Below, piece after piece: positions 1 through 15,598 of a DNA stretch of 64,000 nucleotides. Position 1 is the stretch's first letter, and each line of letters opens with the position of its first letter. Where the stretch lies: assembly GCF_036250755.1 (NCBI RefSeq), contig NZ_CP109583.1, forward strand, positions 2,170,001 to 2,234,000. Reading direction: 5' to 3'. Both the position numbers and the translations under genes were made by a program. Under the pieces are notes generated by a model, which did not search any database, was not told where the DNA came from, and worked only from the letters and a program-made list of their open reading frames with translations. The DNA is from Streptomyces uncialis (GTDB taxonomy: Bacteria > Actinomycetota > Actinomycetes > Streptomycetales > Streptomycetaceae).

Positions 1-2
1 AC

Positions 3-1127
3 TGGCTCAGCAAGGTCGAGCGGAACGTCATCCCGGTCGATTCACTCAGCATGCTGATCGCCATCGCCCGCGAAGTCGGACTCGACAACGTCGCCGACCT
101 CGTGGGCCCGACAGTCAGCCTGAGCCTCGCCGCCGGCGCCGAGCATCCGTCGGTGCCGGCCATTCGACGAGCCCTCAACACACCACCCTCGCTCCTCGGC
201 CTCGGCCTGCCCGGTGACGCCCTCACCGCCGAACAACTCGACGGACGTGTCGTCGAGGCATGGGACATCTACGAAACGCGGACCGAGCGGTACGGACCGG
301 TCGGTGAGCTGCTGCCCGGACTGCTCGCGGAAACGTACGCCACCCTCAGCGCCTCGACGGGTGAGGAGGAGCGGCGGGTCGCGGGGTGCCTGGTGTCGCT
401 GCTGCATCTGCACCAGGTGTTCCTGCGGCGGGTCGGTGAACGTCCCCTGTCCCTGCGGGCGGCCGACAGGGCGATGCAGATCGCTGACGAGACCGGGGAC
501 CGCGCGCTGATCGCCGCCGCCGCGTGGAACGTCGTCGGCATCCTCACGTCCAGTGGTGAGGTCTCGGACGCACTCGACCTGGCCCGCCGGATGATCGACC
601 ACTGCCACCCGGACGGCGACGCCACCCCCGAACACCTCTCCGCGTACGGCGCTCTGCACCTCGGTGCCGTCATCGCGGCGGTGCGGGACAGCAAGGCACC
701 CACAGCCTGGGACCTGCTTGCCAAGGCCCGGCTGGTCGCCGCGAGGCTCGGCACGGACCGGAACGACTTCCACACCTCGTTCGGACCGACCAATGTGTCG
801 ATGCACGGCGTGCACCTCGCGGCTGAGGAGGGAGACATAAGGGAGGCCCTGCGTCTGGCGGACGACGTCGACGTACCTGAGCCCGGAGGTGTGCTGCCAC
901 TGGAGCGCACCACCCGCTACCTGGTCGAGGTGATGCACGCCAACCGGCTTGCCGGTGACCAGTACGCCACCCTGCACATGCTGCGCGAGATCATGCAGGC
1001 GTCTCCCGAGGAGATCCGCTACTTCCCCCTCGTGTGGGAAGCCGTACAGAGCCTGCTCAAGCATTCCCGCCCGCAGATGCGGCGTGAGGTGCACGCGATC
1101 GCTGAGCATGTCGGAGTACTGGCGTAG
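3..1127 (+). CDS. XRE-family regulator with TPR-like C-terminus, 5' end outside the window
   Basis: The frame is open from base 3, and the first residues (WLSKVERNVIPVDSLSMLIA) look like the end of a helix-turn-helix region, so the DNA-binding part is mostly cut off by the window edge. About 374 residues are visible and end at TAG 1125-1127. The rest is a run of amphipathic helices of the TPR-like type found in Streptomyces XRE regulators, with the family signature FGPTNV near residue 262. The same motif occurs in the regulator at 24882-26066, so the two are paralogous. An internal ATG at 51 is not a credible start because the homologous frame continues upstream. Ligand and targets are unknown. 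It is followed by a second XRE regulator and then by cassette copy A. Confidence 0.8.
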   Translation, partial: WLSKVERNVIPVDSLSMLIAIAREVGLDNVADLVGPTVSLSLAAGAEHPSVPAIRRALNTPPSLLGLGLPGDALTAEQLDGRVVEAWDIYETRTERYGPVGELLPGLLAETYATLSASTGEEERRVAGCLVSLLHLHQVFLRRVGERPLSLRAADRAMQIADETGDRALIAAAAWNVVGILTSSGEVSDALDLARRMIDHCHPDGDATPEHLSAYGALHLGAVIAAVRDSKAPTAWDLLAKARLVAARLGTDRNDFHTSFGPTNVSMHGVHLAAEEGDIREALRLADDVDVPEPGGVLPLERTTRYLVEVMHANRLAGDQYATLHMLREIMQASPEEIRYFPLVWEAVQSLLKHSRPQMRREVHAIAEHVGVLA

Positions 1128-1441
1128 GCCACGACAGCCCACCCGGGTCGCTGCCGCATTCTTCCTCCAATGCCGGTGATATGACGGTTGATCAGAATCG
1201 ACCGGGCCATGGTCGGCCTCGCAGCCGCCCTGTATGCCGAAAGCGGCGGGTTCATCGTCGGCGCACCCGCCCCTGCGGACAACAGCGGGACAGGGGAGGA
1301 GGAGTGAAATCACCGATTTCTCGTACGCCAGGACAGACCTGCCGCAGCACCGAACGCAACTGCGCCAAGAGGCCGACTCGCCTCGCACGCAACCGTTTTG
1401 GGCGTACCGTTTCAAGCGACGAGCCAGAAACGGAGTTCGGC
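1128..1441. other. Intergenic gap between two XRE regulators
   Basis: This stretch of 314 bp has no reading frame with coding-like sequence and a usable ribosome binding site. I see no strong inverted repeat. It presumably holds the promoter of the 1442 gene, but no convincing -35/-10 pair stands out. Confidence 0.4.
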
Positions 1442-2644
1442 ATGAGCATGCACCAGTGGTCTGACTACAGCACCGGCGAGCGAATCAAGGCCCTTCGTGG
1501 CACGGAGATCACACAGGACGCCCTGGCCGGGATGACAGGGCTCTCCATCGCAACCATTCAGGCGGCCGAGCAGGACAAGCGGCTCTCCCTTCCGACCCTC
1601 CTGAAGATCACCGCGGCACTCGGCGTCGACACGGCAGTCACCCTTGGGCAGCAGCCGCCACGCCGGTCCCTGCAACAGGACGACCGCGCGATGCTGAAGA
1701 ACCTTTCGCACGCGGTGCACGACACAGCGGCCGGAATCACGCACGCCACCGCCCCTCCGCCGCTGACCGATCTGGAGAAGATCGAGAAACGGGCGTGGGA
1801 GCTGTACTGGCAGGGCCGCTACGCCGAGGTGGGAACGATCAGCGCGCCGCTGCTGCGTGACGCCGCCGCCCGGCTGCGCGCCCAGCCTGCCGGGGAGCAG
1901 GCGCGCGCCTGGGGTCTGGTGGCGGACGCGTACCGCCTGTGCGGCTACGTGGCGAACCTGATGGGAGTGCGTGACCTCGCCTATGCCGCGATCGGTCATG
2001 CCCAACAGGCAGCCGAGCGGGCCGGTGACGACCTGCGTCAGGCCCTCGTCGCCTCCGGGCGGTCCTGGGTGTACCTGCGTGACGCGCGTCTTCGTGACGC
2101 GCTGGAACTGGCTGAGAGGTCAGCGACCGACATCGAGCCGCTGTTCTCCAAAGCCACCCCGGAGCAACTCACGGTGTACGGATCGCACATCAACTTCGCC
2201 GCCGTCGTCGCCTCACGCATGGGCAACGCGGACCGGGCGTCCGACTATCTCTCCCAGTCCCACGCGACCGGTGCCCGGTTGGGCCGGGAGATGCGCGCTC
2301 ATGGAACCCTGTTCGGTCCGGTGACCGCGACCACTCAGGCCGTCGGTGTCAACCTGTCGCTCGGACAGGCCGGAAAGGCCCTGGCCCTGGTGAACTCCAT
2401 CCATGACGTCACGAGCCTGAGCGAAGCCGCGCAGAACCGCTACCAGCTCGACAAGGCACTCGCCCTGGCGGACGCGAAGATGTGGGACGCGAGCCTGGAC
2501 ACGTTGGAGGCGGCCGTACGGGCAGCACCGCACTGGGCTCGCCACCAAGCGCTCCCCCAGGTGATCGTGTCGAAGATCGGCCGCGCGTCCACTGTCCGGC
2601 TGCGCAGGGTGGCGAAGCTGATCGGCGCCAATCCGATCGTCTGA
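1442..2644 (+). CDS. XRE-family transcriptional regulator with TPR-like C-terminus
   Basis: This 400-residue protein has an N-terminal helix-turn-helix at about residues 12-65 (ERIKALRGTEITQDALAGM, then a recognition helix SIATIQAAEQDKR), followed by an all-helical TPR-like sensor region from about residue 110 to the end. The ATG at 1442 was chosen because GGAG lies 6-9 nt upstream and the HTH starts right after it; the frame stays open upstream to 1181 but without family-like sequence. It contains FGPVTATTQAVG where its relatives have FGPTNV. It lies 314 bp after the partial XRE gene and upstream of copy A of the three-gene cassette, the same order as the XRE pair at 23550-26066 and copy B. 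Target and effector are unknown. Confidence 0.85.
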   Translation: MSMHQWSDYSTGERIKALRGTEITQDALAGMTGLSIATIQAAEQDKRLSLPTLLKITAALGVDTAVTLGQQPPRRSLQQDDRAMLKNLSHAVHDTAAGITHATAPPPLTDLEKIEKRAWELYWQGRYAEVGTISAPLLRDAAARLRAQPAGEQARAWGLVADAYRLCGYVANLMGVRDLAYAAIGHAQQAAERAGDDLRQALVASGRSWVYLRDARLRDALELAERSATDIEPLFSKATPEQLTVYGSHINFAAVVASRMGNADRASDYLSQSHATGARLGREMRAHGTLFGPVTATTQAVGVNLSLGQAGKALALVNSIHDVTSLSEAAQNRYQLDKALALADAKMWDASLDTLEAAVRAAPHWARHQALPQVIVSKIGRASTVRLRRVAKLIGANPIV

Positions 2645-2796
2645 CCAATCACCCCGACTCGTACGTCGCGTACGACCCGAACCCCGAACGGTGCGGGGAA
2701 CTCGTACGCGACGGGCGGCTCCCACCGCGCAGCGATCGCAGAAGTCGTACAGCCCCGATCTGTACTGTCACCCGCTGTAGCGGAAGGGTTACGGGC

Positions 2797-3108
2797 ATGA
2801 GTGAGAGCCCTCTCCGGACACCGCGCCAGCGTCAGCGCCGCCGCGCCTTGCACAGCGCCGCCGCCGGTCGCACCGCCGTGATCCTCTACATCTGCCTGCG
2901 AGACCCGGACCATGGGGCGAACGAGACCGCAACCATCCTGCGCGGGTACGCGCTCGCCCGGGACTGGGAAGTCACCGAAATCGTCTTCTGCGAGGCCCCC
3001 ACACCGACACCGCTCAACGAGCGTGCCCAGTGGGCCCATGTCCGGCACGCGATCACCGAACATCACATCCAAGGCGTCATCAGCTTGGAGGGGCAACTCA
3101 CCCCGTAG
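2797..3108 (+). CDS. Small resolvase-N-domain-like hypothetical protein
   Basis: This 103-residue protein starts at ATG 2797, with GGAAGGG about 8 nt upstream. After a basic N-terminus (TPRQRQRRRALHS) it reads like the first alpha/beta half of a serine-recombinase N-terminal domain: a strand VILYICLRDP, a helix, a strand around WEVTEIVFCE, an NERAQW segment and a strand GVISL. The nucleophilic serine expected near the end of the first strand is absent and there is no DNA-binding half, so it is unlikely to be a working recombinase. Similar stand-alone proteins are seen in Streptomyces near XRE regulators, from general knowledge of the genus. It may belong with the cassette starting 91 bp downstream. 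Function unknown. Confidence 0.5.
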   Translation: MSESPLRTPRQRQRRRALHSAAAGRTAVILYICLRDPDHGANETATILRGYALARDWEVTEIVFCEAPTPTPLNERAQWAHVRHAITEHHIQGVISLEGQLTP

Positions 3109-3199
3109 AGTCTGCCGATCACGTCTGGATCGCTGAACACGGCGCATTCCTCTGCGAAGTATCGGCAGATGTCCAGCAGCCCGGATCGGACCTCGCGAC

Positions 3200-3589
3200 G
3201 TGATCGAACCCAACGCGGATTCGCCACCACTTGCGTCGCTCCTCACCGAGTGGGCCCAGCACCGGGCCCCACGCGAGCGGGCCGCCGTCGCCGCACTCGT
3301 CGCGGACGAGGAGCTCCTCCACCGCGACGAGATCCGCACCGCCCTGATCACCAAACAGGACGGCCACATGGCCTGCGACTGGGCCCGCCTCGCCCGGCGT
3401 CACGTACTCGTCCCCGATCTGTCGGCCTCCGACCGGGCCTTCCTCGTCCTGGTCCTCGCCATCGCCCAACGCACCGCCGCACCCCTCGGCCAACTCGACA
3501 CCCTCGGCGAACACCGGCTCACCCTCGTCCTACGCGCCCTCGCCCACCTCGGCGGATCCGACACCCCCGCCGCAGGAGAACGCGCATGA
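3200..3589 (+). CDS. Cassette copy A, gene 1: ~130-aa helical protein with CDW motif
   Basis: I do not recognise a named family. The 129-residue protein is predicted mostly helical and soluble. Key pieces are LLTEWAQHRAPRERAAVAAL, a central CDWARL motif around residue 61 and a C-terminal LTLVLRALAHLGG. It is paralogous to its downstream neighbour (shared LL..WA..R...E.AAV.AL, CDW.R, AFL.LV.A, LG..RLT..LRA..HL). The start is GTG 3200; copy B (26219-26641) has a longer, different N-terminus, so this start is the less certain end. It overlaps the next gene by 4 bp (ATGA). From base 3261 the DNA is almost identical to copy B, while upstream it is diverged, which suggests gene conversion. Codons are strongly C-ending. 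Confidence 0.7.
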   Translation: MIEPNADSPPLASLLTEWAQHRAPRERAAVAALVADEELLHRDEIRTALITKQDGHMACDWARLARRHVLVPDLSASDRAFLVLVLAIAQRTAAPLGQLDTLGEHRLTLVLRALAHLGGSDTPAAGERA

Positions 3590-4063
3590 CGACTGAGACA
3601 CCCCCGGCGGAACACCCGCAACTTCTCACCGACCGCCTCCTCATCTGGGCAGGCGGCCGAACCCCGGGCGAACAAGCCGCCGTCATCGCCCTCATCGACG
3701 AAGGCGACCTCCTCACCCGCCGAGAAGTCCAGCAACTCCTCATCAGCGACAACGGCACCACCCTCCACTGCGACTGGCCCCGCTTCGAAACCCGCTACCG
3801 CACCGCCCTCACCCTCGACGACGAGGAAGACGCCTTCCTCACCCTCGTCATCGCCACCGCCTTCCCCCGCCTCGTCGCCCTCTGGAAAGTCGAAGCACTC
3901 GGCAGACGCCGACTCACCATCATCCTCCGCGCCATCGAACACCTCGCCACAACCAGCACCACCGTCCAGGAGCCGACATGATCTGCTCCCACTGCGACCA
4001 ACCCATCCAGGACCACGAGGCATACGAGAGACAGTCGTCGCCCTCCGCGTCCGGGCCGGGGAC
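3239..4063 (+). repeat. Long direct repeat, copy A (offset 23,052 bp to copy B)
   Basis: Bases 3239-4063 match 26291-27115 without gaps. In the tract 3261-4063 I count only two differences (3392 G/A and 3927 C/G) in 803 bp. Just upstream three differences fall within five bases (3256, 3258, 3260), and at 4064 the copies diverge abruptly. The near-identical tract covers most of gene 1, all of gene 2 and the first codons of gene 3, whereas the outer parts of the same genes are homologous but diverged. This is the pattern left by gene conversion between older paralogous loci. Crossing-over between the copies would delete or duplicate about 23 kb. Confidence 0.92.
3586..3981 (+). CDS. Cassette copy A, gene 2: paralogue of gene 1 with CDW motif
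   Basis: This 131-residue helical protein of unknown function starts at ATG 3586, overlapping gene 1 by 4 bp, with GCAGGAG just upstream. It aligns along its whole length with gene 1: WAGGRTPGEQAAVIALID, then LLTRREVQQLLIS, a conserved CDWPRF around residue 67, DAFLTLVIATAFPRL and RRLTIILRAIEHLA. Two tandem paralogues with the same invariant Cys-Asp-Trp suggest a heterodimer or two halves of one activity; that is inference. The amino-acid sequence is the same as in copy B (26638-27033): the single base difference in this gene, at 3927, leaves CTC/CTG leucine unchanged. The gene overlaps the third cassette gene by 4 bp. Confidence 0.75.
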   Translation: MTTETPPAEHPQLLTDRLLIWAGGRTPGEQAAVIALIDEGDLLTRREVQQLLISDNGTTLHCDWPRFETRYRTALTLDDEEDAFLTLVIATAFPRLVALWKVEALGRRRLTIILRAIEHLATTSTTVQEPT

Positions 4064-4427
4064 GACCCTGTACCGGCACGCGGTGCCGTGCCGGGAGCGG
4101 ACCGGGCCCGCGCACGGGGGCGCCGACACGGACACGGTCGGACTCGCCTGGGGGCGGCTCCTCACCCATCTGGACAACTGTGCCGAATGCCTCGGCGACG
4201 ACCCCTGGGACTGCCGGACCGCGCACACGCTCCGCAGGGCATGGCGAGCGGCACGGTCCGCACCCCGGCGAACGCCTGCCGTCTGCGCGGGATGCCTGTC
4301 CGCCCGGCTCCTGGGACGCGCCGACGACATCCACATGTGCCACGGCGTCACCTGGATGCGGGTGGAGGGACGGCTCCTCGCGGTGGTCGCGGCGCGCGAG
4401 CCGTGTCCGTGTCCGTGCGCCTCGTGA
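3978..4427 (+). CDS. Cassette copy A, gene 3: Cys-rich (zinc-ribbon-like) protein
   Basis: This 149-residue protein starts at ATG 3978 inside the ATGA overlap with gene 2. It has CSHC at residues 3-6, a histidine and cysteine near residue 38 (RHAVPC), a middle segment with CAEC (about residues 68-71), then CAGC (about 109-112), MCHGVTW and a tail CPCPCAS. Such paired cysteines point to one or two structural zinc sites. The first ~29 codons are nearly identical in DNA to copy B gene 3; after base 4063 the two copies diverge but still align (CHGVTW.RVEGRLL, CPCPC). Copy B lacks about 35 residues present here, including the CAEC segment. Function unknown. Confidence 0.7.
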   Translation: MICSHCDQPIQDHEAYERQSSPSASGPGTTLYRHAVPCRERTGPAHGGADTDTVGLAWGRLLTHLDNCAECLGDDPWDCRTAHTLRRAWRAARSAPRRTPAVCAGCLSARLLGRADDIHMCHGVTWMRVEGRLLAVVAAREPCPCPCAS

Positions 4428-4638
4428 GCCGGGGGTCGCGGGCGGGTGCCCCTGGTCTCCGCCCGGGTCCGGCCCGGGTGGGGGCGCTGGGCCGGAGGGG
4501 GGCACCTGGGGGCCGGTCCCGGGGGAACCGGGCGTGCCGGAGGGGGAAACGGGTCGCGGGCTTATAGCAATGGCCCATGCGTGATGTCCGTGTTCCCGAC
4601 CCTGCCGCGGGGCTCGCTCCGTCGGCCGCCGGGGCCTG

Positions 4639-7557
4639 ATGGCGGCGCTGATCCTCGCTCATTTCCTGCTCGCCGCGTGCGCGGGGCCGCTCGTGGGGCG
4701 GCTGGGTCCACGGGCGTTTTTGGTACTGGCGGTGCCGCCCGCCGTGACCGTGGGGTGGGCCGCGTTCCAGTGGGGCACCGCCGCCGGGGGCGGTGCGGTC
4801 ACCTGGTCGCTGGCGTGGCTGCCCGCGTACGACGTGTGGCTCGCGCTGCGGATGGACGCGCTCGCGCTGCTGATGGTGCTGCTCGCGGCCGGGGTGGGTG
4901 CGCTGGTCCTGGTGTACTGCGTGCGGTACTTCGACGCCGGGACGCCGATGCTGGGGCGGTTCGCGGGGAATCTGCTGGCGTTCGCGGGGGCGATGCTCGG
5001 GCTGGTGCTCGCGGACGATCTGGTGGTGCTCTATGTGTTCTGGGAGCTGACCACCGTCTTCTCCTATCTGCTGATCGGGCACGGCAGCGAACGCAAGCAG
5101 AACCGGCGCTCCGCGCTCCAGGCGCTGACGGTGACGACGCTGGGCGGGCTCGCGATGCTCGTCGGGTTCCTGATGCTCGGTCGGGCGGCGGGCACGTACC
5201 GGATCTCGGAGCTGGTGGCGAACCCGCCGACGCCGTCCACCGCCGTGTCGGTGGCCGTGGTGCTGGTGCTGGTGGGCGCGCTGTCGAAGTCCGCGATCTG
5301 GCCGTTCAGTCTGTGGCTGCCGAACGCGATGGCCGCGCCGACGCCGGTGAGCGCGTATCTGCACGCGGCGGCGATGGTCAAGGCGGGGGTCTATCTGGTG
5401 GCGCGGCTGGCGCCCGCGTTCGCGGACGCGCCGCCGTGGCGGCCGATGCTGCTGGTGCTCGGTTCGGCGACGATGCTGCTCGGGGGCTGGCGGGCGCTGC
5501 GGCTCAACGATCTGAAGCTGGTGCTCGCGTACGGCACGGTCAGTCAGCTGGGGTTCCTCACCGTGCTGGCCGGGGCGGGGAACCGGGACGCCGCGCTGGC
5601 CGCCGCCGTGATGATCCTGGCGCACGCGCTGTTCAAGGCCCCGCTGTTCCTCGTCACCGGGATCGTGGACCACGCGACGGGCACCCGGGACCTGCGGCGG
5701 CTGTCCGGGGTGGGGCGGACGCTGCCGTGGGTGGCGGGCACGGCGTGTGTCGCGGGCGCGTCGATGGCGGCGCTGCCGCCGCTGCTCGGGTTCGCCGCGA
5801 AGGAAGCCGCGTTCGAGGCGCTGCTGCACGGCGGCACGGCGGACCGCTGGGCGCTGGCCGCCGCGACGGTGGGTTCGGCGCTGACCTGCGCGTACACCCT
5901 GCGTTTCCTGTGGGGGGCGTTCGCCCGTAAGCCCGGTCTCGCGGACACGCCCGCGCGCCGGGTGGACGTGGCGTTCCTCGGGGCGCCCGCGCTGCTGGCG
6001 GTGGCCTGTCTGGTGCTGGGGCCCGGGGTGCCCTGGCTGAACGGGCTGCTCGGCGCGTACGCGGACACCTTCCCGGCGCCCGCGCACCCCTATGAGCTGG
6101 CGCTGTGGCACGGGTTCGGCACCGCCCTGCTGCTGTCGGCGGCGGCCTGGGCGGGCGGTGTGGCGCTGTTCGTGCTGCGCGGGCCGGTGGTGCTGCTGTC
6201 GCGGCGGGTGGCCTGGCCGACGGCGGACCGGATGTTCGGGCTGGGGCTGCTGGGCCTGGAGCGGCTGGCGCTCCAGGTCACCGGGTTCTTCCAGCGCGGT
6301 TCGGTGTCCGTGTATCTGGCGACGGTCCTGCTGGTGCTGTTCGGCGGGCAGCTCGCCGTGCTGGTGGTGGACGAGCCGTGGACGGGGGCGGCGCCGCCCC
6401 GGCTGTGGGACTCGCCGGTGCAGGGCGGGGTCGCCCTGCTGACGTGCGCGGCGGCGCTGCTGTGTCTGCCGGTGCGGCGGCGGATGAAGGTCGTGGTGCT
6501 GGCGGGGCTCACCGGCTACGGCACGGCGCTGCTGTTCGTGGTGCACGGGGCGCCGGATCTGGCGCTCACCCAGTTCTGTGTGGAGACGGTCTCGCTGCTG
6601 GTGTTCGTGCTGGTGCTGCGGCGGATGCCGGTGTACTTCCAGGAGACGATCAGCCGCCGCCGGCTGCTGATGCGGGTGCCCTTCGCGCTGGCCGCGGCGG
6701 CGGTCGCCGGGACGTCGATGTGGGTGGTGGCCGCCGCGCGCGTGGCCGACCCGGCGGGCGGCGCGCTGGTCCGGGCCACCGCCGAGCACGGGGTGAAGGA
6801 CGTGGTGGCGACGATCCTGGTGGAGTACCGGGCGTGGGACACCCTGGGTGAGTCGGCGGTGCTCGCGGTCGCCGCCGTCGGGGTGACGAGTCTGATCTAT
6901 CTGCACCGCAGGACCGGGCCCGTCGAGGGCGGTGAGACGCTGCTCGCGCCGGGCGCCGCCGAGGCGCCCACCGCCCCGGCCGGTCCGACGGCGTGGTCGT
7001 ACGGCTCACGGTTCGTCACCCGGGGGCCGGTCGCGGAGGACACCGCTCCCGAGCGGACGTGGCTGGCCGCCGGGGGCACGCTGGCGCCCGAGTACCGGTC
7101 GGTGGTGTTCGAGGTCGTCGCGCGGCTGGTGTTCCACCCGATCCTCGTGCTGTCGGTGTATCTGCTGCTGTGCGCGGAGAACCTGCCGGGCGGCGGCTTC
7201 GTGGCCGGTCTGGTGGCGGGGCTCGCGATGATGGCGCGGTATCTGGCGGGCGGCCGGCACGAGCTGGCCGACGCGGCGCCCGGCCATCCCGGGCTGCTCA
7301 CCGGGCTCGGACTGCTGCTGTCCGCGTCGGTCGCCGTCGTCGGACTCGTCGACGGGACGGTGCTGCACGCGTTCTCCTACGACGGGCATATGCCGGTCGT
7401 GGGCCACTTCCACCTGGGCACCCCGGTCCTGTTCGACACGGGGGTGTATCTGCTGGTGCTCGGGGTGGTCCTGGACATCGTGCGGGCGCTCGGGGCCCGG
7501 GTCGACCGGCAGATCGAGCACGCGGCCCGCGCGGCGCACCGGGAGGCCGGCCGGTGA
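4639..7557 (+). CDS. mrpA: Na+/H+ antiporter subunit A with fused subunit B domain
   Basis: This 972-residue polytopic membrane protein is the large subunit of the multi-gene Mrp/Mnh cation/proton antiporter. Residues ~1-480 are the NuoL-like proton-channel part (FYVFWELTT-type helix at ~130-140, PTPVSAYLHAA at ~235-245, LKLVLAYGTVSQLGFL at ~295). The middle has further membrane segments, and residues ~815-960 are an MrpB-like domain (VFHPILVLSVYLLL, LPGGGFVAGL, GTPVLFDTGVYLLVLG). No separate mrpB exists, so A and B are fused, as in other actinobacteria. It opens the operon mrpA(B)-C-D-E-F-G and overlaps mrpC by 4 bp. The start at ATG 4639 has a weak ribosome binding site, so the exact start is uncertain. 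Confidence 0.92.
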   Translation: MAALILAHFLLAACAGPLVGRLGPRAFLVLAVPPAVTVGWAAFQWGTAAGGGAVTWSLAWLPAYDVWLALRMDALALLMVLLAAGVGALVLVYCVRYFDAGTPMLGRFAGNLLAFAGAMLGLVLADDLVVLYVFWELTTVFSYLLIGHGSERKQNRRSALQALTVTTLGGLAMLVGFLMLGRAAGTYRISELVANPPTPSTAVSVAVVLVLVGALSKSAIWPFSLWLPNAMAAPTPVSAYLHAAAMVKAGVYLVARLAPAFADAPPWRPMLLVLGSATMLLGGWRALRLNDLKLVLAYGTVSQLGFLTVLAGAGNRDAALAAAVMILAHALFKAPLFLVTGIVDHATGTRDLRRLSGVGRTLPWVAGTACVAGASMAALPPLLGFAAKEAAFEALLHGGTADRWALAAATVGSALTCAYTLRFLWGAFARKPGLADTPARRVDVAFLGAPALLAVACLVLGPGVPWLNGLLGAYADTFPAPAHPYELALWHGFGTALLLSAAAWAGGVALFVLRGPVVLLSRRVAWPTADRMFGLGLLGLERLALQVTGFFQRGSVSVYLATVLLVLFGGQLAVLVVDEPWTGAAPPRLWDSPVQGGVALLTCAAALLCLPVRRRMKVVVLAGLTGYGTALLFVVHGAPDLALTQFCVETVSLLVFVLVLRRMPVYFQETISRRRLLMRVPFALAAAAVAGTSMWVVAAARVADPAGGALVRATAEHGVKDVVATILVEYRAWDTLGESAVLAVAAVGVTSLIYLHRRTGPVEGGETLLAPGAAEAPTAPAGPTAWSYGSRFVTRGPVAEDTAPERTWLAAGGTLAPEYRSVVFEVVARLVFHPILVLSVYLLLCAENLPGGGFVAGLVAGLAMMARYLAGGRHELADAAPGHPGLLTGLGLLLSASVAVVGLVDGTVLHAFSYDGHMPVVGHFHLGTPVLFDTGVYLLVLGVVLDIVRALGARVDRQIEHAARAAHREAGR

Positions 7558-8225
7558 CCGTCAGTCTGACGCTGCTGGCGACCGGGTCACTGCTGTGCGC
7601 GGTGGGCGGGGTGCTGCTGCTGATGCGGGCGCTGACCCGCATCCTGACCGGTGCGGTGATCCTCAGCAACGGGATCAACGTCCTGATGCTGACGGCCGCC
7701 GGGGCCGCCGGTCCACCGCCGCTGCTCTACCCCCGGGTGGACATCGCGCGGGTCACCGATCCGCTGCCGCAGGCCATCGCGCTGACCGCGATCGTCATCA
7801 CCCTCGCGACCACGGCGTTCCTGCTGGCGATGGCGTACCGCAGCCAGCGTGTCAACGGCTCCGACGAGGTCATCGACGACATCGAGGACCGGCGGGTCGC
7901 GCTGCGCGCGGAGGTGCAGGAGCAGCGGGCCGCGCTGCGGGAGCTGCACGGGCCCCGGGGGCGGGGCCCGGAGGGCGACCGGGACGAGTACCTCTCGGAG
8001 CGCAAGCGGCTGCGGGCGATGCTGCGGGAGGACCGGGCCCTCCAGGCGCGGGCCCGGGACGCGTCGGGCGATCTGTGGAACGACATCCTCGGCGAGGACC
8101 CGGGCGACCACCCGGACCCGTCCGCGCCTCCCGCGGCCCCCGACCACCGCGACCCGTCCGAGCCCCCCGTACCCCCCGATCACCGTGAACCGCCGCCCGG
8201 CGGCGCCGAGGAGGGCCGTCCGTGA
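7554..8225 (+). CDS. mrpC: Na+/H+ antiporter subunit C with long charged tail
   Basis: MrpC is the NuoK-like small membrane subunit. Residues ~1-100 hold three membrane helices with the family features GAVILSNGINVLML and DPLPQAIALTAIVI. The protein is 223 residues, about twice the usual ~110-125. The extra ~120 residues are hydrophilic: an Arg/Glu-rich helix likely to be coiled coil (about 105-185), then a Pro/Asp-rich tail. GTG 7554 overlaps the mrpA stop as GTGA, and its own stop overlaps mrpD the same way, so translation is coupled. The tail faces the cytoplasm if the topology is as in the family. Confidence 0.9.
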   Translation: MTVSLTLLATGSLLCAVGGVLLLMRALTRILTGAVILSNGINVLMLTAAGAAGPPPLLYPRVDIARVTDPLPQAIALTAIVITLATTAFLLAMAYRSQRVNGSDEVIDDIEDRRVALRAEVQEQRAALRELHGPRGRGPEGDRDEYLSERKRLRAMLREDRALQARARDASGDLWNDILGEDPGDHPDPSAPPAAPDHRDPSEPPVPPDHREPPPGGAEEGRP

Positions 8226-9853
8226 ACGCGCTCGTGCCGCTGCCCGTCCTGCTGCCGCTGCTGGCCGCCGGGTCCGAACTCGTCCTCGGCACCCGCTACC
8301 CGCGCGCCCAGCGGTTCGTCGGTGTCGCCGTGCTGACGGCCGTGCTGGGGCTGTCGCTGACGCTGCTGGTGGCCGCCGACAGCCGGGGGCCGATCGTGAT
8401 GCACCTGGGGGACTTCGCGCCGCCGCTCGGCATCACGCTGGTCGCCGACCGGCTGTCCGCGCTGATGCTGACGGTGTCGGCGGCGGTCACACTGTGCGTG
8501 CTGGTCTACTCGGTCGGCCAGGGCATGGCCGACCGGGAGGAACAGTCGCCGCTCGCGGTCTTCCACCCCGCCTACATGGTGCTGGTCGCCGGGGTGTCGT
8601 GCACGTTCCTCGCCGGTGACCTGGTCAATCTGTACGTCGGCTTCGAGATCATGCTGGTGGCGAGCTTCGTGCTGCTGACCCTCGGCGGTACGGCGGCCCG
8701 GCTGCGCGCGGGAGCGACGTACGTCCTGGTGTCGCTGGTCTCGTCGATGGTGTTCTTCACGGCGGTCGCCCTGACCTACGCGGCGGCGGGCACGGTGAAC
8801 CTCGCGCAGCTCGCCGTCCGGCTGGCGGAGCTGCCGATCGGGGTGCGGACCCTGCTGGAGGCGACGCTGCTGACGGTGTTCGCCGTGAAGGCCGCCGTCT
8901 TCCCGCTCGCCGCCTGGCTGCCCGACTCGTACCCGACGACCCCGGCGCCGGTCACGGCGGTGTTCGCGGGACTGCTCACCAAGGTCGGCGTGTACTGCGT
9001 GCTGCGCACCGAGACCCTGCTGTTCCCCGGCAACCGGCTGGGAGACCTGCTGCTGGTGGCGGCCCTCGCGTCGCTGGTGGTCGGGGTGCTCGGCGCGGTC
9101 GCCCAGACCGATCTGAAGCGGGTGCTGTCCTTCGTCCTGATCAGCCACATCGGGTACATGATCTTCGGGATCGGGATCGGTACCCGGGCGGGACTGGGCG
9201 GCGCGATCGTGTACGTCGTCCATCACATCACCGTGCAGACCGCGCTGTTCCTGGTGGCCGGGCTGATCGAGCGGCGGACGGGCACCACCGAGCTCACCCG
9301 GGTCGGCGGACTCGCGGCGGCCGTCCCCGCGCTGGGGGCGCTGTTCCTGCTGCCCGCGCTGAACCTCGCCGGGATTCCGCCGATGTCCGGGTTCATCGGG
9401 AAGCTGGAGCTGCTGCGGGCGGGTGTCGCGGACGCCGGGGTCCTCGCGTACGTCCTGGTGGGGGCGGCCTCGCTGACCAGTCTGCTGACCCTGTACGTGA
9501 TGGCGAAGGTGTGGAACCTCGCGTTCTGGCGGGCGGCCCCGGCGGGAGCGGCCGAACGCGGGACGGTGCTGGAGGAACCCGACACCGACGACTCCGGCCC
9601 GGACCCGGACGACGTGGTGCGGCGGCCCGCGCCCGCCGGGCAGGCCGTGACCGCGACGCTGTCCGGGCGGGCCATCACCGTCACCACCACCACGGACCGG
9701 CTGCCGCGCACCATGACCTGGGCGACGGCCGCGCTGGTGCTGCTGTCCCTCGCGTACACGGTGCTGGGCGACCCGTTCACCGCGGTCACCGGGCGGGCGG
9801 CGGACGAGCTCCTGGAACGTTCCCCCTACATCGAGGCGGTGCTCGGCCAATGA
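8222..9853 (+). CDS. mrpD: Na+/H+ antiporter subunit D
   Basis: This 543-residue NuoN/NuoM-like proton-channel subunit starts at GTG 8222 in a GTGA overlap with mrpC. Family landmarks include LYVGFEIMLVASFVLLTLGG (~135-155), AAWLPDSYPTTPAPVTAVFAG (~225-245), QTDLKRVLSFVLISHIGYM (~295-315) and NLAGIPPMSGFIGK (~380). A hydrophilic loop of about 60 residues (TVLEEPDTDDSGPDPDDVV and following) sits before the last membrane helix, somewhat longer than usual. It is followed after 7 bp by mrpE. Confidence 0.93.
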   Translation: MNALVPLPVLLPLLAAGSELVLGTRYPRAQRFVGVAVLTAVLGLSLTLLVAADSRGPIVMHLGDFAPPLGITLVADRLSALMLTVSAAVTLCVLVYSVGQGMADREEQSPLAVFHPAYMVLVAGVSCTFLAGDLVNLYVGFEIMLVASFVLLTLGGTAARLRAGATYVLVSLVSSMVFFTAVALTYAAAGTVNLAQLAVRLAELPIGVRTLLEATLLTVFAVKAAVFPLAAWLPDSYPTTPAPVTAVFAGLLTKVGVYCVLRTETLLFPGNRLGDLLLVAALASLVVGVLGAVAQTDLKRVLSFVLISHIGYMIFGIGIGTRAGLGGAIVYVVHHITVQTALFLVAGLIERRTGTTELTRVGGLAAAVPALGALFLLPALNLAGIPPMSGFIGKLELLRAGVADAGVLAYVLVGAASLTSLLTLYVMAKVWNLAFWRAAPAGAAERGTVLEEPDTDDSGPDPDDVVRRPAPAGQAVTATLSGRAITVTTTTDRLPRTMTWATAALVLLSLAYTVLGDPFTAVTGRAADELLERSPYIEAVLGQ

Positions 9854-9860
9854 CGTCCCC

Positions 9861-10466
9861 GTGATCTCGGTCAGGTTCCATGACCCGGGGCTGCCCCCGT
9901 ACAGCTGTGTGGTGGTGGGGCGCCGGCGGCGGGTGCTCGATCTGCCGCTGATCGCCTGGCTCACCGTCGTATGGGTGCTGCTGTGGGGCAATCTCAGCGT
10001 CGCCAATGTGGTCGGCGGGGCGCTGGTCGCGGTGGTGGTGTGCCTGGTCTTCCCGCTGCCGCTGGTCAACATCGGGCTGCGGCTGCATCCGCTGGGCATC
10101 GCGCGGCTGGCGGTGCGGCTGGTGTGGGAGATGTACACGGCCGGGCTGAAGGTCTCGCACCAGATGCTCGACAACCGTCCGTTCCTCGCGGCCGTCCTCG
10201 CCGTCCCGCTGCGCTGCCGCGGCGATCTGATGCTCACCGCGACCGCGGTGGCCGTCTCCAACATCCCCGACGGCTCGGTGGTCGAGGTCCACCGGGCGCA
10301 GGCCACCCTCTTCGTGCACGTCCTGGAGGCCGACGACCCGCGGACCCCGGAGCGGACCCGGCAGGCCGTGTGGCGGATGGAGGAGCTGGTCGTACGCGCG
10401 TTCGGCGACCGGGACGAGATCGCCCGGGTCCGCGAAGCGCCGCCCCGGCCGGAGGGCGCCCGGTGA
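9861..10466 (+). CDS. mrpE: Na+/H+ antiporter subunit E
   Basis: This 201-residue protein starts at GTG 9861. It has two N-terminal membrane helices (IAWLTVVWVLLWGN and GGALVAVVVCLVFPL) followed by the soluble MrpE domain with DLMLTATAVAVSNIPDGSVVEV and TLFVHVLEADD. MrpE is needed for assembly of the antiporter in known systems; that is family knowledge. The N-terminus is about 25 residues longer than in many homologues, so an internal start is possible. The stop overlaps mrpF by 4 bp. Confidence 0.9.
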   Translation: MISVRFHDPGLPPYSCVVVGRRRRVLDLPLIAWLTVVWVLLWGNLSVANVVGGALVAVVVCLVFPLPLVNIGLRLHPLGIARLAVRLVWEMYTAGLKVSHQMLDNRPFLAAVLAVPLRCRGDLMLTATAVAVSNIPDGSVVEVHRAQATLFVHVLEADDPRTPERTRQAVWRMEELVVRAFGDRDEIARVREAPPRPEGAR

Positions 10467-10780
10467 GCGCCGCGCGGAACGTCGACCAGGTGCTGCTCAC
10501 GGCCGCCGCGGTGATGATCCTGCTCGCCGGGGCGCTGGTGCTGTACCGGGTGTGGCGCGGCCCCTCGATGCTGGACCGCGCGATGGCGCTGGACGTGTGC
10601 GCCGCGCTGATGATCGCGGGCATCGCGGTGCGCTCCGCGCTGAACCGGGACGCCTTCTACTTCCCGGTGATGCTGGTGCTGGCGTTCCTCGGCTTCACCG
10701 GGTCCGTCGGCATCGCGCGGTTCATCGCCGTCCGGGACCGGCCGCCGGACCCGACCCGGGCCGGGGAGGAGGGCCGGTGA
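10463..10780 (+). CDS. mrpF: Na+/H+ antiporter subunit F
   Basis: This 105-residue protein with three membrane helices starts at GTG 10463 in a GTGA overlap with mrpE. The MrpF signature is clear: RVWRGPSMLDRAMALDV, followed by the last helix ending in GSVGIARFIAVR. It overlaps mrpG by 4 bp. Confidence 0.92.
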   Translation: MSAARNVDQVLLTAAAVMILLAGALVLYRVWRGPSMLDRAMALDVCAALMIAGIAVRSALNRDAFYFPVMLVLAFLGFTGSVGIARFIAVRDRPPDPTRAGEEGR

Positions 10781-11169
10781 GCGCGGGCACGCAGATCGCG
10801 GACACCGCCGGGGCGGTGCTGCTGTTCCTCGGGGCGGCGGTGAGTCTGCTGGGCGCCATCGGGATGGTGCGGATGCCCGATGTCCTCTCCCGCAGCCACG
10901 CGGCCACCAACCCCCAGGCGCTGGGCATGCTGCTGGTGCTCGCGGGGGTCGCGCTGCGGCTGCGCAGCGGCATCGACCTGGGGACGCTCGGACTGGTCGG
11001 CTTCTTCCAGCTGCTGACCGGCCCGGTCTCGGCGCATCTGGTGGCCCGGGTCGCCTACCGCACCGGGTACGCGGGCCGCGAGGGCCTCGTCTTCGACGAT
11101 CTGGACGCGCAGCTGAGCGCGGTGCCGCAGGACGGGGAGGGGGGCACGGGGCCGGGTGGGGGACGGTGA
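10777..11169 (+). CDS. mrpG: Na+/H+ antiporter subunit G
   Basis: This 130-residue subunit starts at GTG 10777 (GTGA overlap with mrpF) and closes the operon. It has three membrane helices and the MrpG signature GAIGMVRMPDVLSRSHAATNPQALG. The C-terminal ~30 residues are hydrophilic and Gly-rich. The complete A(B)CDEFG set implies a working Mrp complex exporting Na+ (or K+) in exchange for protons, serving pH and salt tolerance. Confidence 0.92.
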   Translation: MSAGTQIADTAGAVLLFLGAAVSLLGAIGMVRMPDVLSRSHAATNPQALGMLLVLAGVALRLRSGIDLGTLGLVGFFQLLTGPVSAHLVARVAYRTGYAGREGLVFDDLDAQLSAVPQDGEGGTGPGGGR

Positions 11170-11263
11170 TCCGCCGGGACGGTGGGGCGGCCGGGGTGGG
11201 CGGTTCGCCGAGGCCGCCGGTCCCCCGGTGGCACTGCGGCCACAGTGGTGACATGTTCAAGCT

Positions 11264-12361
11264 ATGTTTGGCCGGGTGATTGCGGAAGCTACGGCACAGT
11301 CGATCGTGGACGACATCGCCGGCCGCCTCGGGGTCAGCGTGAACATCATGGACGAGCGCGGGGTGATCATCGCCAGCAGCGACCGTTCCCGGGTGGGCGG
11401 CGCGCACGGCGGGGCACTGCACGTGCTGTCCACCGGGATGCCGCTGTCGGTGACCGCCAAGGAGGCCCGTTCGCTGGACGGGACCCGGGCGGGCGTCAAT
11501 CTCCCGCTGTGGCTGAACGGGAACGTCGTCGGGGTCGTCGGGGTGCGGGGCGAACCGCGCGAGGTCGGGGAGATCGCGCGCGCGGTCGCGCGGCTGGCCG
11601 AACTGATGGTGATGCAGGAGGCGTTCCTCGGTGAGGCCGGCTGGCGCCACCGGGTGCGTCAGCAGATCATGGAGGACCTGCTCGCGGCCCGGCTGACCGA
11701 GGAGGGCTTCCGCCAGCGCCAGCAGCTCGCGGGGTGCCGGGTCGAGGCGCCGTACTCGCTGTTCGCGCTCCGGCACGCGCCCGCCGCCGCGTACACCGAG
11801 CCCCGGGACCTGTACCGGCTGCTGGAGGTGGACGAACGCTCCGCGCTGGTCGTGGCGGACGCCGCCGGGGTGGTGTGGACGGTGACCGGCGGCTCCACCT
11901 CCGTCGCGCTGCGGTACCGGCTGTCGGGACTGTGCGCGGCGCACCCCGACACGGGCGTCCTGGACGCGGGCCGGGTGGACGACTTCGGGGCGCTGACGGA
12001 ACTGACCGGGCAGGCCCGCTTCGCGCTGCGCCGCCGACTGGTCGGCGAGGTGCGGCTGGCGGACCTGGAGCTACCGGTGCTGCTGGCGCGGCTCGATCCG
12101 GGGGTACGGGTCGAGACCGCGGAACGTGTCCTCGGGGCGCTGTCCGCGGAGCTGCGCAACACCCTGCGGGCGTACTTCGCGCACGACTGCGGTGTGGTGG
12201 AGGCCGCCCAGGCCCTGAACGTGCACCGCAACACCCTCGCGTACCGGCTGGGCCGGGTCGCCGAGCTGACCGGCCGCGATCCGCGGGCGTTCCAGGACGC
12301 GGTGGTGCTCCAGGTCGCGCTGCACCTCGCCGAGATCGACCAGGACCAGCCGCCCCGCTGA
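11264..12361 (+). CDS. CdaR-type sugar-diacid/glycerate regulator
   Basis: This 365-residue protein has the three-part layout of CdaR: an N-terminal sugar-diacid recognition domain (residues ~1-130; AQSIVDDIAGRLGVSVNIMDERGVI and GVVGVRGEPREV), a linking domain, and a C-terminal PucR-type helix-turn-helix (~300-365; LRAYFAHDCGVVEAAQALNVHRNTLAYRLGR). In E. coli CdaR activates glucarate/galactarate/glycerate genes including garK. A glycerate kinase and a GntP permease follow on the same strand, which supports the same role here. The start ATG 11264 lacks a clear ribosome binding site; GTG 11276 is an alternative. Confidence 0.85.
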   Translation: MFGRVIAEATAQSIVDDIAGRLGVSVNIMDERGVIIASSDRSRVGGAHGGALHVLSTGMPLSVTAKEARSLDGTRAGVNLPLWLNGNVVGVVGVRGEPREVGEIARAVARLAELMVMQEAFLGEAGWRHRVRQQIMEDLLAARLTEEGFRQRQQLAGCRVEAPYSLFALRHAPAAAYTEPRDLYRLLEVDERSALVVADAAGVVWTVTGGSTSVALRYRLSGLCAAHPDTGVLDAGRVDDFGALTELTGQARFALRRRLVGEVRLADLELPVLLARLDPGVRVETAERVLGALSAELRNTLRAYFAHDCGVVEAAQALNVHRNTLAYRLGRVAELTGRDPRAFQDAVVLQVALHLAEIDQDQPPR

Positions 12362-12763
12362 GACGGTGTCCGGCGCCTTGGGCCGGGTCGGATCCGCCGC
12401 TTCGTCGAGGGGCCGGGTCCGCCGCCCCGCCGCGCGACCCGCCCCGCCGCGCGACCAGGTTCCGCCGCGCGACCAGGTTCCGCCGCGCGACCAGGTTCCG
12501 CCGCCCCGCTGAGACGGCGTCCGGCGCCTTGCCGGGCAGGGCCGCGCGAAGGGCCGCGGGGCGTCCAGCGGAACGGCCGTCACGCTGTGTCGTGCGCTGT
12601 TCTCGTGCGCGGTGCACAAATCCAGGGGTGCCCGGGGGCGGAAAATCCGGTCGCCCCGCCGATGCCGCCCCTGCCTTCCCGTACCTAAAGTGCCGACACA
12701 GCTCAAGCAGAGCCGCCCCTCCCCGGAGTTCCCCTCCGCCCGGGTGTTCTCCCACGAAAGGCC
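12362..12763. repeat. Intergenic region with 18-nt tandem repeats and a duplicated 31-nt gene tail
   Basis: Bases 12445-12498 are three exact tandem copies of an 18-nt unit (CGCCGCGCGACCAGGTTC). The 31-nt block 12350-12380, which spans the end of the CdaR gene and its stop codon, recurs with one mismatch at 12501-12531, just after the array. The duplicated block therefore carries a second copy of the gene's last bases and TGA. The rest of the gap to the kinase gene has no evident gene. This looks like slippage or a local duplication. Confidence 0.8.
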
Positions 12764-13897
12764 GTGGACGTGCGTGTCGTCATCGCTCCGGACTCCTTCA
12801 AGGGCAGTCTGACCGCCGCCGAGGTCTGTGCGGCCATCGAGAACGGGGTGCTGCGTGCCCTCCCCCACGCGGAAGTGGCCCGGGTGCCGATGGCCGACGG
12901 GGGTGAGGGCACCCTCGACTGCGTCGGCGCGGCGACCGGCGGCCGGGAGATCACCCTGACCGTCGGCGGTCCGATGGGCCGTCCCGTCGATGCCCGGTAC
13001 CTGCTGTCCGCCGACGGGACCTCCGCCGTCGTCGAACTCGCCGCCGCCTCGGGGCTGCCGCTGGTGGAGCCCGGCGAGGTCGACGCGCTGCGCGCCGACA
13101 CCACCGGCACCGGTGAGCTGATCGCGGACGCCGTGCGCCGGGGCGCCCGTGAGGTGCTGGTGTGCATCGGCGGCAGTGCCAGCACCGACGGCGGCACCGG
13201 GCTGATGCGGGCCCTCGGCGCCAGCTTCCTGGACGCCGACGGCGCCGAACTCCCGCCGGGCGGCGGCGCCCTCACCGAACTGGCCCGTATCGACCTGGAC
13301 GGGCTGGGCGACGAGGTCCGGGGCACCCGGTTCCGGATCGCCTGCGATGTGACCAATCCGCTGGTCGGGCCGGAGGGCGCCGCCGCGGTGTTCGGCCCGC
13401 AGAAGGGCGCCACCGCCGACCAGGTCCGGCGGCTGGACGAGGGGCTGACCCGCTTCGCGGACGTCCTCGACCGGCAGTTCGGCGTCCGGGTCCATGATCT
13501 GCCGGGCGCGGGCGCGGCGGGCGGCACCTGCGGCGGGATGCTCGCGGTACTGGACGCCGAGGCCGTCAGCGGCTGCGAACTGGTCGCCGACACGGTGGGC
13601 CTCGCCCGTCAACTGGACGGCGCGGAGCTGGTGTTCACCGGCGAGGGCCGGGTGGACCGGCAGAGCGCGGGCGGCAAGGTCGTCTCGCTGGTCGCCCGGC
13701 TCGCCGCGGAGCGCGGCATCCCCGTCGTCGCGCTCGCCGGTCAGCTCGTCCCCCCGCTCGACGATCTGCACGCGCTGGGTCTCACGGCCGCGTTCAGCAT
13801 CGCGGACGGTCCGCGCCCCCTCGCGGACATGACCGTCTCGGCCGCGGAGCTGCTGTCCGGCGCGGCCGAACAGATCGTCCGGCTGCGGGTCGGCTGA
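12764..13897 (+). CDS. Glycerate kinase
   Basis: This 377-residue enzyme belongs to the GlxK/GarK glycerate 2-kinase family and phosphorylates glycerate with ATP to feed glycolysis. Landmarks: VRVVIAPDSFKGSLTAAEVC at the N-terminus, PMADGGEGTLD (~45-55), CIGGSASTDGGTGLMRALG (~130-150), FTGEGRVDRQSAGGKVV (~290) and VVALAGQL (~325). The length is normal for the family. The start is GTG 12764 or GTG 12770; GAAAGG lies 5-11 nt upstream. It sits between a CdaR-type regulator and a GntP permease, forming a glycerate uptake and use set. Confidence 0.92.
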   Translation: MDVRVVIAPDSFKGSLTAAEVCAAIENGVLRALPHAEVARVPMADGGEGTLDCVGAATGGREITLTVGGPMGRPVDARYLLSADGTSAVVELAAASGLPLVEPGEVDALRADTTGTGELIADAVRRGAREVLVCIGGSASTDGGTGLMRALGASFLDADGAELPPGGGALTELARIDLDGLGDEVRGTRFRIACDVTNPLVGPEGAAAVFGPQKGATADQVRRLDEGLTRFADVLDRQFGVRVHDLPGAGAAGGTCGGMLAVLDAEAVSGCELVADTVGLARQLDGAELVFTGEGRVDRQSAGGKVVSLVARLAAERGIPVVALAGQLVPPLDDLHALGLTAAFSIADGPRPLADMTVSAAELLSGAAEQIVRLRVG

Positions 13898-14170
13898 CCC
13901 GGCCGGGCAGGCACCCGTACGACCGGTTCCGCCGGGCCCCGACGCCCCCGGGACGCTGCACGGCCCGTACCCCGCCCTGCCCCCGCTCCCCCACACCCGT
14001 CACCTCCCCCACATCCACGGCGTCCCCCCGCACCCGGACCGCCCAGGACTTCCCCGGTTCCCCACCCTGGGCGGTCCGGTCCTCCGCGCCAAGGCCCCAC
14101 CCGCCCCCCACAGCCCAAGGTCCCCACCGCCCCCACAGTCCCTTCCTCTCCGGTCCCTACGAGGAGTTCC

Positions 14171-15598
14171 ATGAGCACCGCCGGCCCCGCCCTGCTCGCA
14201 GCTCTGGCGGCGAGCATCGCCCTGATCATCTTTTTGTGCGGCCGCTTCAAGCTGCATCCGTTCCTCGCCATCGTCCTGTCCACCTACGCGTTCGGCATGA
14301 TGGCGATGGGCATCGGTGCCGCGACGGGCGCCGACGAGCGCTTCGTCGACAATCTCGGCACCACCATCGCCGAGGGCTTCGGGACGATCCTCGCCAGCAT
14401 CGGTCTGGTGATCCTCTTCGGCACGATCATCGGCAAGGTGCTGGAGCGCACCGGCGCGGCCGTCACCCTGGCCGAGGCCGTGCTGAAGGTGGTCGGCAAG
14501 CGGCATCCCGCGCTCGCCATGTCGCTGATCGGCTGGGTCGTCTCGATCCCCGTGTTCTGCGACTCGGGCTATGTGGTGCTGTCCCCGCTCCAGCGCTCGA
14601 TCGCCCGTAAGACGGGCAAGAACCCGGTGGTGCTCGGTACGGCGCTGGCCACCGGTCTGTACGCGTCGCACACCTTCGTCCCGCCGACGCCCGGCCCGAT
14701 CGCCGCCGCGGGGAACGTGGGCATCGGCTCCGACGGTCTCATCTGGGTGATCCTCTTCAGCATCCCGGTCTCGCTTGTCGCCGCGCTCGCCGGTCTCGCC
14801 TGGGCGCTGCGCCGTACGGGCAACCTGGAGAGCAAGCTGCCCGACGCGCACCAGACGTTCGAGGAGTACAAGGCCCAGTTCGACCGCCTGCCGAGCCTGA
14901 GCCGGGCGCTGACCCCGATCCTGCTGCCGATCGTGCTGATGGCCGTCGGTTCGGTCGCGGCGTTCCCCTCGGGTGACGGCACCCTGGTCGACGGGGCGTT
15001 CGGCAGTCTGCTCAAGGACCTGGGCAACCCGGTCAACGCGCTGCTGATCGGTGTGCTGCTGGCGCTGGTGCTGCTGCCCAGCAAGCTGGACGCGAAGGCG
15101 CTGACCACCTGGGTCGCCGAGGGTCTGGTGGACGCGGCCCCGATCCTGGTGATCACCGGTGCGGGCGGCGCGTTCGGCGCGGTGATCAAGGGCACCCCGA
15201 TCGCGGACTACATCGCCACGCTGATCGGCGACGGTTCGGCGGTCAGCGGTGTCACCGCGCTGCTGGTGCTGTTCGCGCTCGCCGCGCTGCTGAAGACGGC
15301 CCAGGGCAGCAGTACGGCGGCCCTGATCATCACCTCCACCCTGGCGCAGCCGCTGCTGCCCGCGCTGGGGCTGGACGGGAACCTCGGCTCCATACCCATC
15401 GGCCAGGTGATGGCCGTGATGGCGATCGGCGCCGGCGCGATGGTCGTCAGCCATGTCAACGACTCGTACTTCTGGGTGGTGTCGCAGTTCTCCGGGATGG
15501 ACGTGAAGACCGCGTACCGGGCCCAGACGGCGGCCACTCTCGTGCAGGGACTCTCCGCTCTGGTCGTGGTGCTTGTCATGGGTGCCTTGCTGCTGTAG
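14171..15598 (+). CDS. GntP-family permease, probably glycerate or gluconate
   Basis: This 475-residue membrane protein with about 12 helices belongs to the GntP family of H+/sugar-acid symporters. Visible landmarks are FGTIIGKVLERTGAAVTLAE (~80-100), SIPVFCDSGYVVLSPL (~125-140), HTFVPPTPGPIAAAGNVG (~165-180), KTAQGSSTAALIITST (~375-390) and SHVNDSYFWVVSQFSGM (~430). ATG 14171 follows GAGGAG. Because the upstream gene is a glycerate kinase and not gluconokinase, glycerate is the likeliest substrate, by inference. The 273-bp gap upstream is C-rich and holds no gene. Confidence 0.88.
   Translation: MSTAGPALLAALAASIALIIFLCGRFKLHPFLAIVLSTYAFGMMAMGIGAATGADERFVDNLGTTIAEGFGTILASIGLVILFGTIIGKVLERTGAAVTLAEAVLKVVGKRHPALAMSLIGWVVSIPVFCDSGYVVLSPLQRSIARKTGKNPVVLGTALATGLYASHTFVPPTPGPIAAAGNVGIGSDGLIWVILFSIPVSLVAALAGLAWALRRTGNLESKLPDAHQTFEEYKAQFDRLPSLSRALTPILLPIVLMAVGSVAAFPSGDGTLVDGAFGSLLKDLGNPVNALLIGVLLALVLLPSKLDAKALTTWVAEGLVDAAPILVITGAGGAFGAVIKGTPIADYIATLIGDGSAVSGVTALLVLFALAALLKTAQGSSTAALIITSTLAQPLLPALGLDGNLGSIPIGQVMAVMAIGAGAMVVSHVNDSYFWVVSQFSGMDVKTAYRAQTAATLVQGLSALVVVLVMGALLL

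Follow-up and report, generated by a model that had tools for sequence, protein, structure and literature searches.

How can two gene cassettes that lie about 23 kb apart, and whose ends have clearly diverged, share a central stretch of DNA that is the same almost base for base? The question is raised by a 64,000-nucleotide stretch of the Streptomyces uncialis genome (NZ_CP109583.1, positions 2,170,001 to 2,234,000), referred to here as the window and numbered from its first letter. The contig that contains it accounts for 9.12 Mb of a 9.26-Mb genome. The two cassettes, A (3200–4427) and B (26219–27377), are both on the plus strand, and each is found downstream of a regulator gene of the XRE (helix-turn-helix) type:

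1181–2644, plus strand: XRE-type regulator gene at A (Pfam HTH_3, E 5.6e-6; HTH_26, E 5.8e-5)
3200–3589, plus strand: cassette A gene 1 (A1), an open reading frame of 129 aa with a GTG start and no obvious ribosome site
3586–3981, plus strand: cassette A gene 2 (A2), 131 aa, protein identical to B2
3978–4427, plus strand: cassette A gene 3 (A3), 149 aa, Cys-rich, modules M1-M2-M3
24816–26066, plus strand: XRE-type regulator gene at B (HTH_3, E 4.2e-8; HTH_31, E 4.1e-7), start codon uncertain
26098–26133, no strand assigned: perfect 14-bp inverted repeat (loop of 8 bases) in the gap from the regulator gene to B1; folding energy -33.1 kcal/mol, z -5.9
26219–26641, plus strand: cassette B gene 1 (B1), 140 aa
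26638–27033, plus strand: cassette B gene 2 (B2), 131 aa
27030–27377, plus strand: cassette B gene 3 (B3), 115 aa, modules M1-M3

Within both cassettes the gene junctions are ATGA overlaps. The module names M1, M2 and M3 were coined in this analysis. A1 and B1 are 93% identical over residues 17–140. Genes 1 and 2 of each cassette are in addition tandem paralogues of one another (60% DNA identity at a 395-bp shift, 38–39% protein identity), a relationship absent from the first-pass annotation of this DNA. The two regulators are 25% identical to each other; 555 bp separate the end of the regulator gene from the downstream cassette at A, and 152 bp at B. The regulator at A has a TPR-like C-terminus with weak support (TPR_12, E 0.073), and that at B matches a transcriptional regulator family (phrog_5823, E 3.5e-58). 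The inverted repeat upstream of B1 is also present in a second strain, DCA2648, and may be an operator or a terminator. A further XRE-type regulator gene (23523–24797; HTH_31, E 1.6e-10) was observed directly upstream of the regulator at B, to which it is 27% identical.

A near-identical tract with diverged flanks

The first-pass annotation had described the cassette as repeated at an offset of 23,052 bp with an 803-bp tract differing at two bases. Base-by-base comparison at this offset showed the description to be exact, with positions 3392 and 3927 as the only differences:

3261–4063, no strand assigned: near-identical tract, copy A (2 differences in 803 bp; similarity detectable over 3239–4091)
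26313–27115, no strand assigned: near-identical tract, copy B (offset 23,052 from copy A)

The same pair was recovered by whole-genome blast as an 853-bp match of 99% identity (98.6% in a second search), and the run of identity between window A and window B was matched in 25 of 20,000 shuffles. The right border of the tract is sharp, at 4063/4064; the left border falls between 3239 and 3261, where homology itself runs out. Within 3240–4080, the differences that flank the tract are at 3256, 3258 and 3260 on the left and at 4064, 4067, 4070 and 4071 on the right. Between the copies, dS is 0 in inner gene 1 and 0.01 in gene 2. The outer parts of genes 1 and 3 proved to be homologous but diverged, as had been claimed. 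Right of 4063, gene 3 differs at 56 of 211 aligned sites, its last 55 codons giving a dS of 0.60 and a dN of 0.22, and 51 residues of A3 are missing from B3. The first 20–30 residues of gene 1, left of 3239, can barely be aligned.

According to Pfam, the genes between the two repeats encode Mrp subunits, a PucR-type regulator with a sugar-diacid domain, a GntP permease, PhoX and part of a transketolase, which bears out the earlier identification of mrp, phoX and transketolase genes there. It is possible for the 853-bp direct repeats to delete this 23-kb interval; DCA2648 retains it. Elsewhere in the window, related direct and inverted repeats rich in GGGGCGCGGGGAACTGCGC were noted at 42358–43007 and 60091–60662, about 17.5 kb apart.

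Inner and outer genealogies in a second strain

A search for relatives with gene B1 returned 129 stretches matching the pattern, one of which was confirmed, in S. uncialis DCA2648 (records of the window's own genome may have been left out). The DNA comparison is therefore with this one other strain, further strains entering through protein representatives. DCA2648 is about 99% identical to the window strain over 32 kb (249 mismatches in 31,674 aligned bases), and its independent assembly contains both loci, with other alleles and with locus-specific outer parts. Locus B is complete in DCA2648, and locus A lacks gene 1 and the start of gene 2:

3176–3735, no strand assigned: segment absent from DCA2648 locus A (560 bp; 1 bp of microhomology at the joint)

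We considered the short locus A as an ancestral form and rejected this reading. It is most likely a deletion, because the 63 bp at 3176–3238 have no blast match at B and because a protein from another genome, P0005, has a similar gene-1 start.

With four copies at hand, the inner and outer parts of the cassettes could be compared as genealogies. In outer gene 3, outside the tract, 47 of 47 informative sites pair orthologues across strains, as against 0 of 3 inside it, where 3746 and 3805 pair the copies within each strain and 3927 is crossed. The inner test covers the 329 bp common to all four copies (3735–4063). Here the number of differences is 1 between window A and B, 8 between DCA2648 A and B, 6 between the two A copies, 7 between the two B copies, 6 between window A and DCA2648 B, and 5 between DCA2648 A and window B. 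For outer gene 3, both alternatives to the orthologue tree were rejected (AU p < 1e-70). For the inner 329 bp, the orthologue tree is rejected by the AU test (p = 0.036) but not by the KH (0.164) or SH (0.302) tests, and with three informative sites only, the inner tree conflict is weak when taken alone. A conflict between inner and outer trees was what the first-pass annotation had expected from conversion, and it was obtained with one relative. The tract, its borders, its diverged flanks and this conflict of genealogies can all be read directly from the alignments.

The shuffling test gave a similar result for DCA2648 A against window B (20 of 20,000) as for the two window copies, and was not significant for DCA2648 A against B (16,737 of 20,000) or for window A against DCA2648 B (18,665 of 20,000). 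The right half of window B is thus A-like in general, and because DCA2648 A resembles it almost as much as window A does, a single event confined to the window strain is disfavored.

Signs of transfer in both directions

From the protein database, 8 relatives were obtained for B1, 4 for A3 and 10 for gene 2, all of them representatives of 90% clusters, and the labels A and B given to copies in other strains are assigned from their sequences. Two pairs of gene-2 relatives share a contig, P0013/P0014 (114 of 131 residues identical) and P0016/P0018 of strain SID4919 (110 of 130). The window pair A2/B2 is identical at 131 of 131 residues, compared with 85–87% in these two other genomes. The locus tags of the SID4919 pair are 100 apart; locus tags usually step by five, which would place the two genes about 20 genes from each other. 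If P0014 and P0018 are both A copies, locus A is intact in their genomes. P0017 would be a B copy, since P0005 and P0010, which appear to be A-type pieces, come from a contig of the same length, and P0005 looks like a deletion fusion of genes 1 and 2 at an A-type locus.

These relatives bear on the direction of copying. The gene-2 start MTTETPPAEHPQ is found at DCA2648 locus B and in P0017, and a different start is found in the other pair members P0014 and P0018. Since window A2 has this B-type start, the beginning of gene 2 seems to have been transferred from B to A. The other end of the gene tells of the opposite direction. The A-like P0018 and P0005 end in ...QEPT and the B-like P0016 and P0017 in ...EQHT; since ...QEPT is found on both window copies and both DCA2648 copies, an older transfer from A to B is suggested. 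Both the end of gene 2 and the right half of the tract thus seem to stem from A. In P0011, a B-type gene 3 from another S. uncialis genome, A-type residues reach further right than in window B, and the tract border therefore differs between strains. There are signs of both transfer directions at A and B, and the tract probably built up through several events, some running each way.

A divergence island at locus B

Divergence between the window strain and DCA2648 is raised around locus B:

24001–28000, no strand assigned: region of raised divergence between the window strain and DCA2648 (7–18 mismatches per 500 bp)

Elsewhere there are 0–7 mismatches per 500 bp between 4501 and 24000 and 0–4 after 28000. 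Expressed as percentages, the strains differ by 0.41% over 1–3175, by 0.71% over 4428–26218 (a segment that includes the regulator at B) and by 0.37% over 27378–32290. At locus B the values are 2.56% for the regulator, 3.6% for the tract (29 of 803 bases) and 6.1% for outer B3; at locus A they are 1.8–2.5%. Similarly, dS between the strains is 0.07–0.09 for the regulator at B and for B1, B2 and B3, and 0.004–0.02 in four other genes. With dN/dS at 0.08–0.39, the reading frames at locus B behave as real genes on which selection acts. The changes in A3 between the strains, 8 non-synonymous and 2 synonymous, are too few for judging selection, and 8 of the 9 A3 differences outside the tract fall between 4066 and 4147. 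The island at locus B suggests that one of the strains has taken up a diverged allele in place of its own. Since the regulator and locus B together form a divergent island, import from other strains also appears to have acted, and the island is the main rival source for part of the pattern.

Interlocus gene conversion as the probable explanation

Taken together, we consider interlocus gene conversion between older paralogues to be the probable and best explanation of the tract. The paralogous loci are older than the tract, being present in both strains and having an outer dS of 0.60. The conflicting genealogies and the occurrence of both loci in DCA2648 likewise sustain the first-pass annotation in its proposal of conversion between older paralogous loci. 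It had also called the conversion recent, a claim that holds only in part: allele sharing within strains favors it, but the molecular clock does not, the 2 differences observed comparing with 5.0–6.3 expected at the strain background (P = 0.12–0.05), and dating is therefore not decisive.

A and B would then be old paralogues in the S. uncialis lineage, each downstream of its XRE-type regulator gene, and homologous recombination between them would have repeatedly overwritten genes 1 and 2 together with 86 bp at the beginning of gene 3. Poor homology at the outer ends would have kept these locus-specific. The simplest route would be repair in which one copy serves as template for the other, without crossover; the direction of transfer, this RecA-type repair route and the number of events are the parts of the explanation that we infer. 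In Streptomyces ambofaciens, according to the passages cited from (PMC5869714), double-strand breaks are handled by homologous repair as well as by end joining, and scars in the form of deletions result from the latter. By analogy, the 1-bp joint at DCA2648 locus A fits end joining.

Several other explanations must be weighed. A donor allele from another strain, delivered by conjugation, could have recombined into both loci, or an already homogenized segment could have been imported, the copying between loci having occurred elsewhere. The high divergence of the regulator and cassette B from DCA2648 (2.6–6.1%, against 0.4–0.7% around them), the raised dS there relative to the four other genes and the clustering of A3 differences at 4066–4147 all speak for such import, as does the high within-species recombination described for Streptomyces in the cited part of (PMC4239341). 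However, no matching signal is seen in the surroundings (1–3175 and 4428–24000), and a transfer between loci would still be required somewhere, so we regard import as an unlikely source of the whole pattern. Near-identical repeats are also a known source of assembly error, and the evidence here is assembled sequence; one copy might have been filled in part by reads of the other. Such an artefact is very unlikely, as the two internal differences were kept, the borders are sharp, both loci recur in the independent DCA2648 assembly and the window contig spans 9.12 Mb. A recent duplication that placed a copy of one cassette at the other site would account for 803 bp of near-identity, but it is highly improbable: DCA2648 already holds both loci with diverged, locus-specific outer parts, outer gene 3 has a dS of 0.60, and an A-type gene 1 start also exists in the genome of P0005. 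The earlier rejection of a simple recent duplication therefore stands. Strong nucleotide-level constraint that keeps the copies alike without recombination has nothing but the identity itself in its favor and is practically negligible, the same interval varying between strains at locus B (29 of 803 bases; dS 0.07–0.09 in B1 and B2).

A larger family of rare genes

Gene 2 matches 11 places in the window genome. Four of these are genes 1 and 2 of A and B; the other seven, one of them partial, include five that are followed by a gene-3 relative. Besides A3 and B3, five gene-3 relatives from this genome were aligned, and these have modules M1-M2. Other family copies also resemble each other closely, those near 5.003 and 5.077 Mb being 91% identical over 676 bp and those near 6.170 and 6.174 Mb 78% identical over 1.86 kb. 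In DCA2648, about 100 bp are missing from within the gene that corresponds to the 6.174-Mb copy. Counting the loss at locus A as the first, the shortened family gene of 78 aa at L075:986-1219 gives a second internal deletion of the family in DCA2648. The last gene-3 module was also seen to match alone near 4.419, 2.982 and 3.185 Mb (genome C1), like a separate part. As a separate observation, two CRISPR-like arrays, which may be type I-E-like, are located downstream of the family copies near 6.170 and 6.174 Mb (L065:7244-7760 and L065:11446-12573; genome C1 about 6,171,243-6,171,759 and 6,175,445-6,176,572), inside an apparent 1.9-kb segmental repeat. Their period is 61 bp, the repeat is about GGACCACCCCCGCG[C/T]GTGCGGGGnCnAC, and the spacers differ between the arrays.

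Among the genomes examined the family is rare. A gene-1 relative was found in 4 of 150 genomes searched, the window genome included. A DNA search of the genus with each cassette (392 genomes including its own, E <= 1e-50, two candidates scored per listed genome) returned the window genome only, a weak negative at so strict a setting. Among 61 genomes (own included), the flanking hydrolase gene was found in 22 (best other match 59%) and the Mrp protein gene in 10 (others 53–77%), matches that we judged too distant for placing an empty site.

Possible role of the cassette proteins

None of the six cassette proteins has a Pfam match up to E 0.5. A1, A2, A3 and B3 have weak, unrelated matches at best in NCBIfam (best 0.054) and PADLOC (A1 to JetD, 0.012); B1 was covered by Pfam and NCBIfam only and B2 by Pfam only. 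Three candidate identities were considered. Phage genes were rejected, as PHROGs gave nothing better than E 0.043 for A1, A2, A3 and B3. The same four proteins match no recognisable toxin or antitoxin family in NCBIfam or PADLOC, as would be expected of type II toxin-antitoxin genes. Genes 1–3 do not fall into DUF397 (BldB-type) in Pfam at E values up to 0.5. The ten proteins scanned at the two loci matched neither DUF397 nor HATPase_c.

Two described systems are nevertheless similar in layout. The bldB-hpb (DUF397-XRE) pairs of S. pratensis, in the part of the study cited (PMC4239341), likewise place an XRE gene beside small genes in many copies per genome; they are among the most divergent core genes within the species, and horizontal acquisition or conversion was suggested for one pair. 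Unlike these pairs, genes 1–3 lack DUF397, and the exchange is here resolved to single bases. The WhiJ/BldB/AbaA clusters of S. venezuelae, as presented in the cited sections of (PMC10294661), also combine an XRE regulator with small partner genes in many paralogues, and other small genes such as iosA can replace the partner; the difference is that no DUF397 or HATPase_c was detected among the ten A and B proteins. Near gene-1/2 relatives elsewhere, DUF5753 XRE genes were found at L066 (window genome) and L072, DUF6879 at L070 and L072, and a HATPase_c gene at L070, which is the neighborhood of clusters of the WhiJ/BldB/AbaA type as the same sections describe it. No DUF5753 XRE, DUF6879 or HATPase_c gene was found at A or B themselves. 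By analogy of position and behavior, we tentatively suggest that genes 1–3 might encode putative small partner or effector proteins under the adjacent XRE regulator, like WhiJ-type partners.

Implications

The process described here, interlocus gene conversion, is already known; the setting and the proteins are undescribed within the literature searched. No paper on the cassettes was among the matches listed, in a search of open-access literature only, which does not establish their absence from print. In the cited portion of work on tuf-type concerted evolution (PMC6053082), paralogues within a strain are also closer than orthologues between strains, the tract is bounded and synonymous sites are included. 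That case concerns conserved pathway genes, whereas here the genes are fast-changing and accessory, and the cassette is homogenized in part, with its outer ends kept distinct.

A broader reading is speculative and rather unlikely. The cassettes might form a network that exchanges central parts by conversion, loses parts through end-joining deletion and regains them from a sister copy, with gene 3 varying by whole modules (M1-M2-M3, M1-M3, M1-M2). If this were true, new regulator-partner combinations would arise faster than by point mutation.

The cassettes provide a base-level example of interlocus copying in an XRE-linked small-gene locus, a kind of locus that ranks among the most divergent core genes in the cited within-species comparison of S. 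pratensis (PMC4239341). A known process is seen here in an undescribed, fast-changing family of small genes near regulator genes, whose proteins are rare among the genomes examined and found nothing in the four family libraries searched. If such copying is general, orthology calls and trees for regulator loci of this kind would be unreliable, and copying between paralogues could make strains differ in development or antibiotic control.
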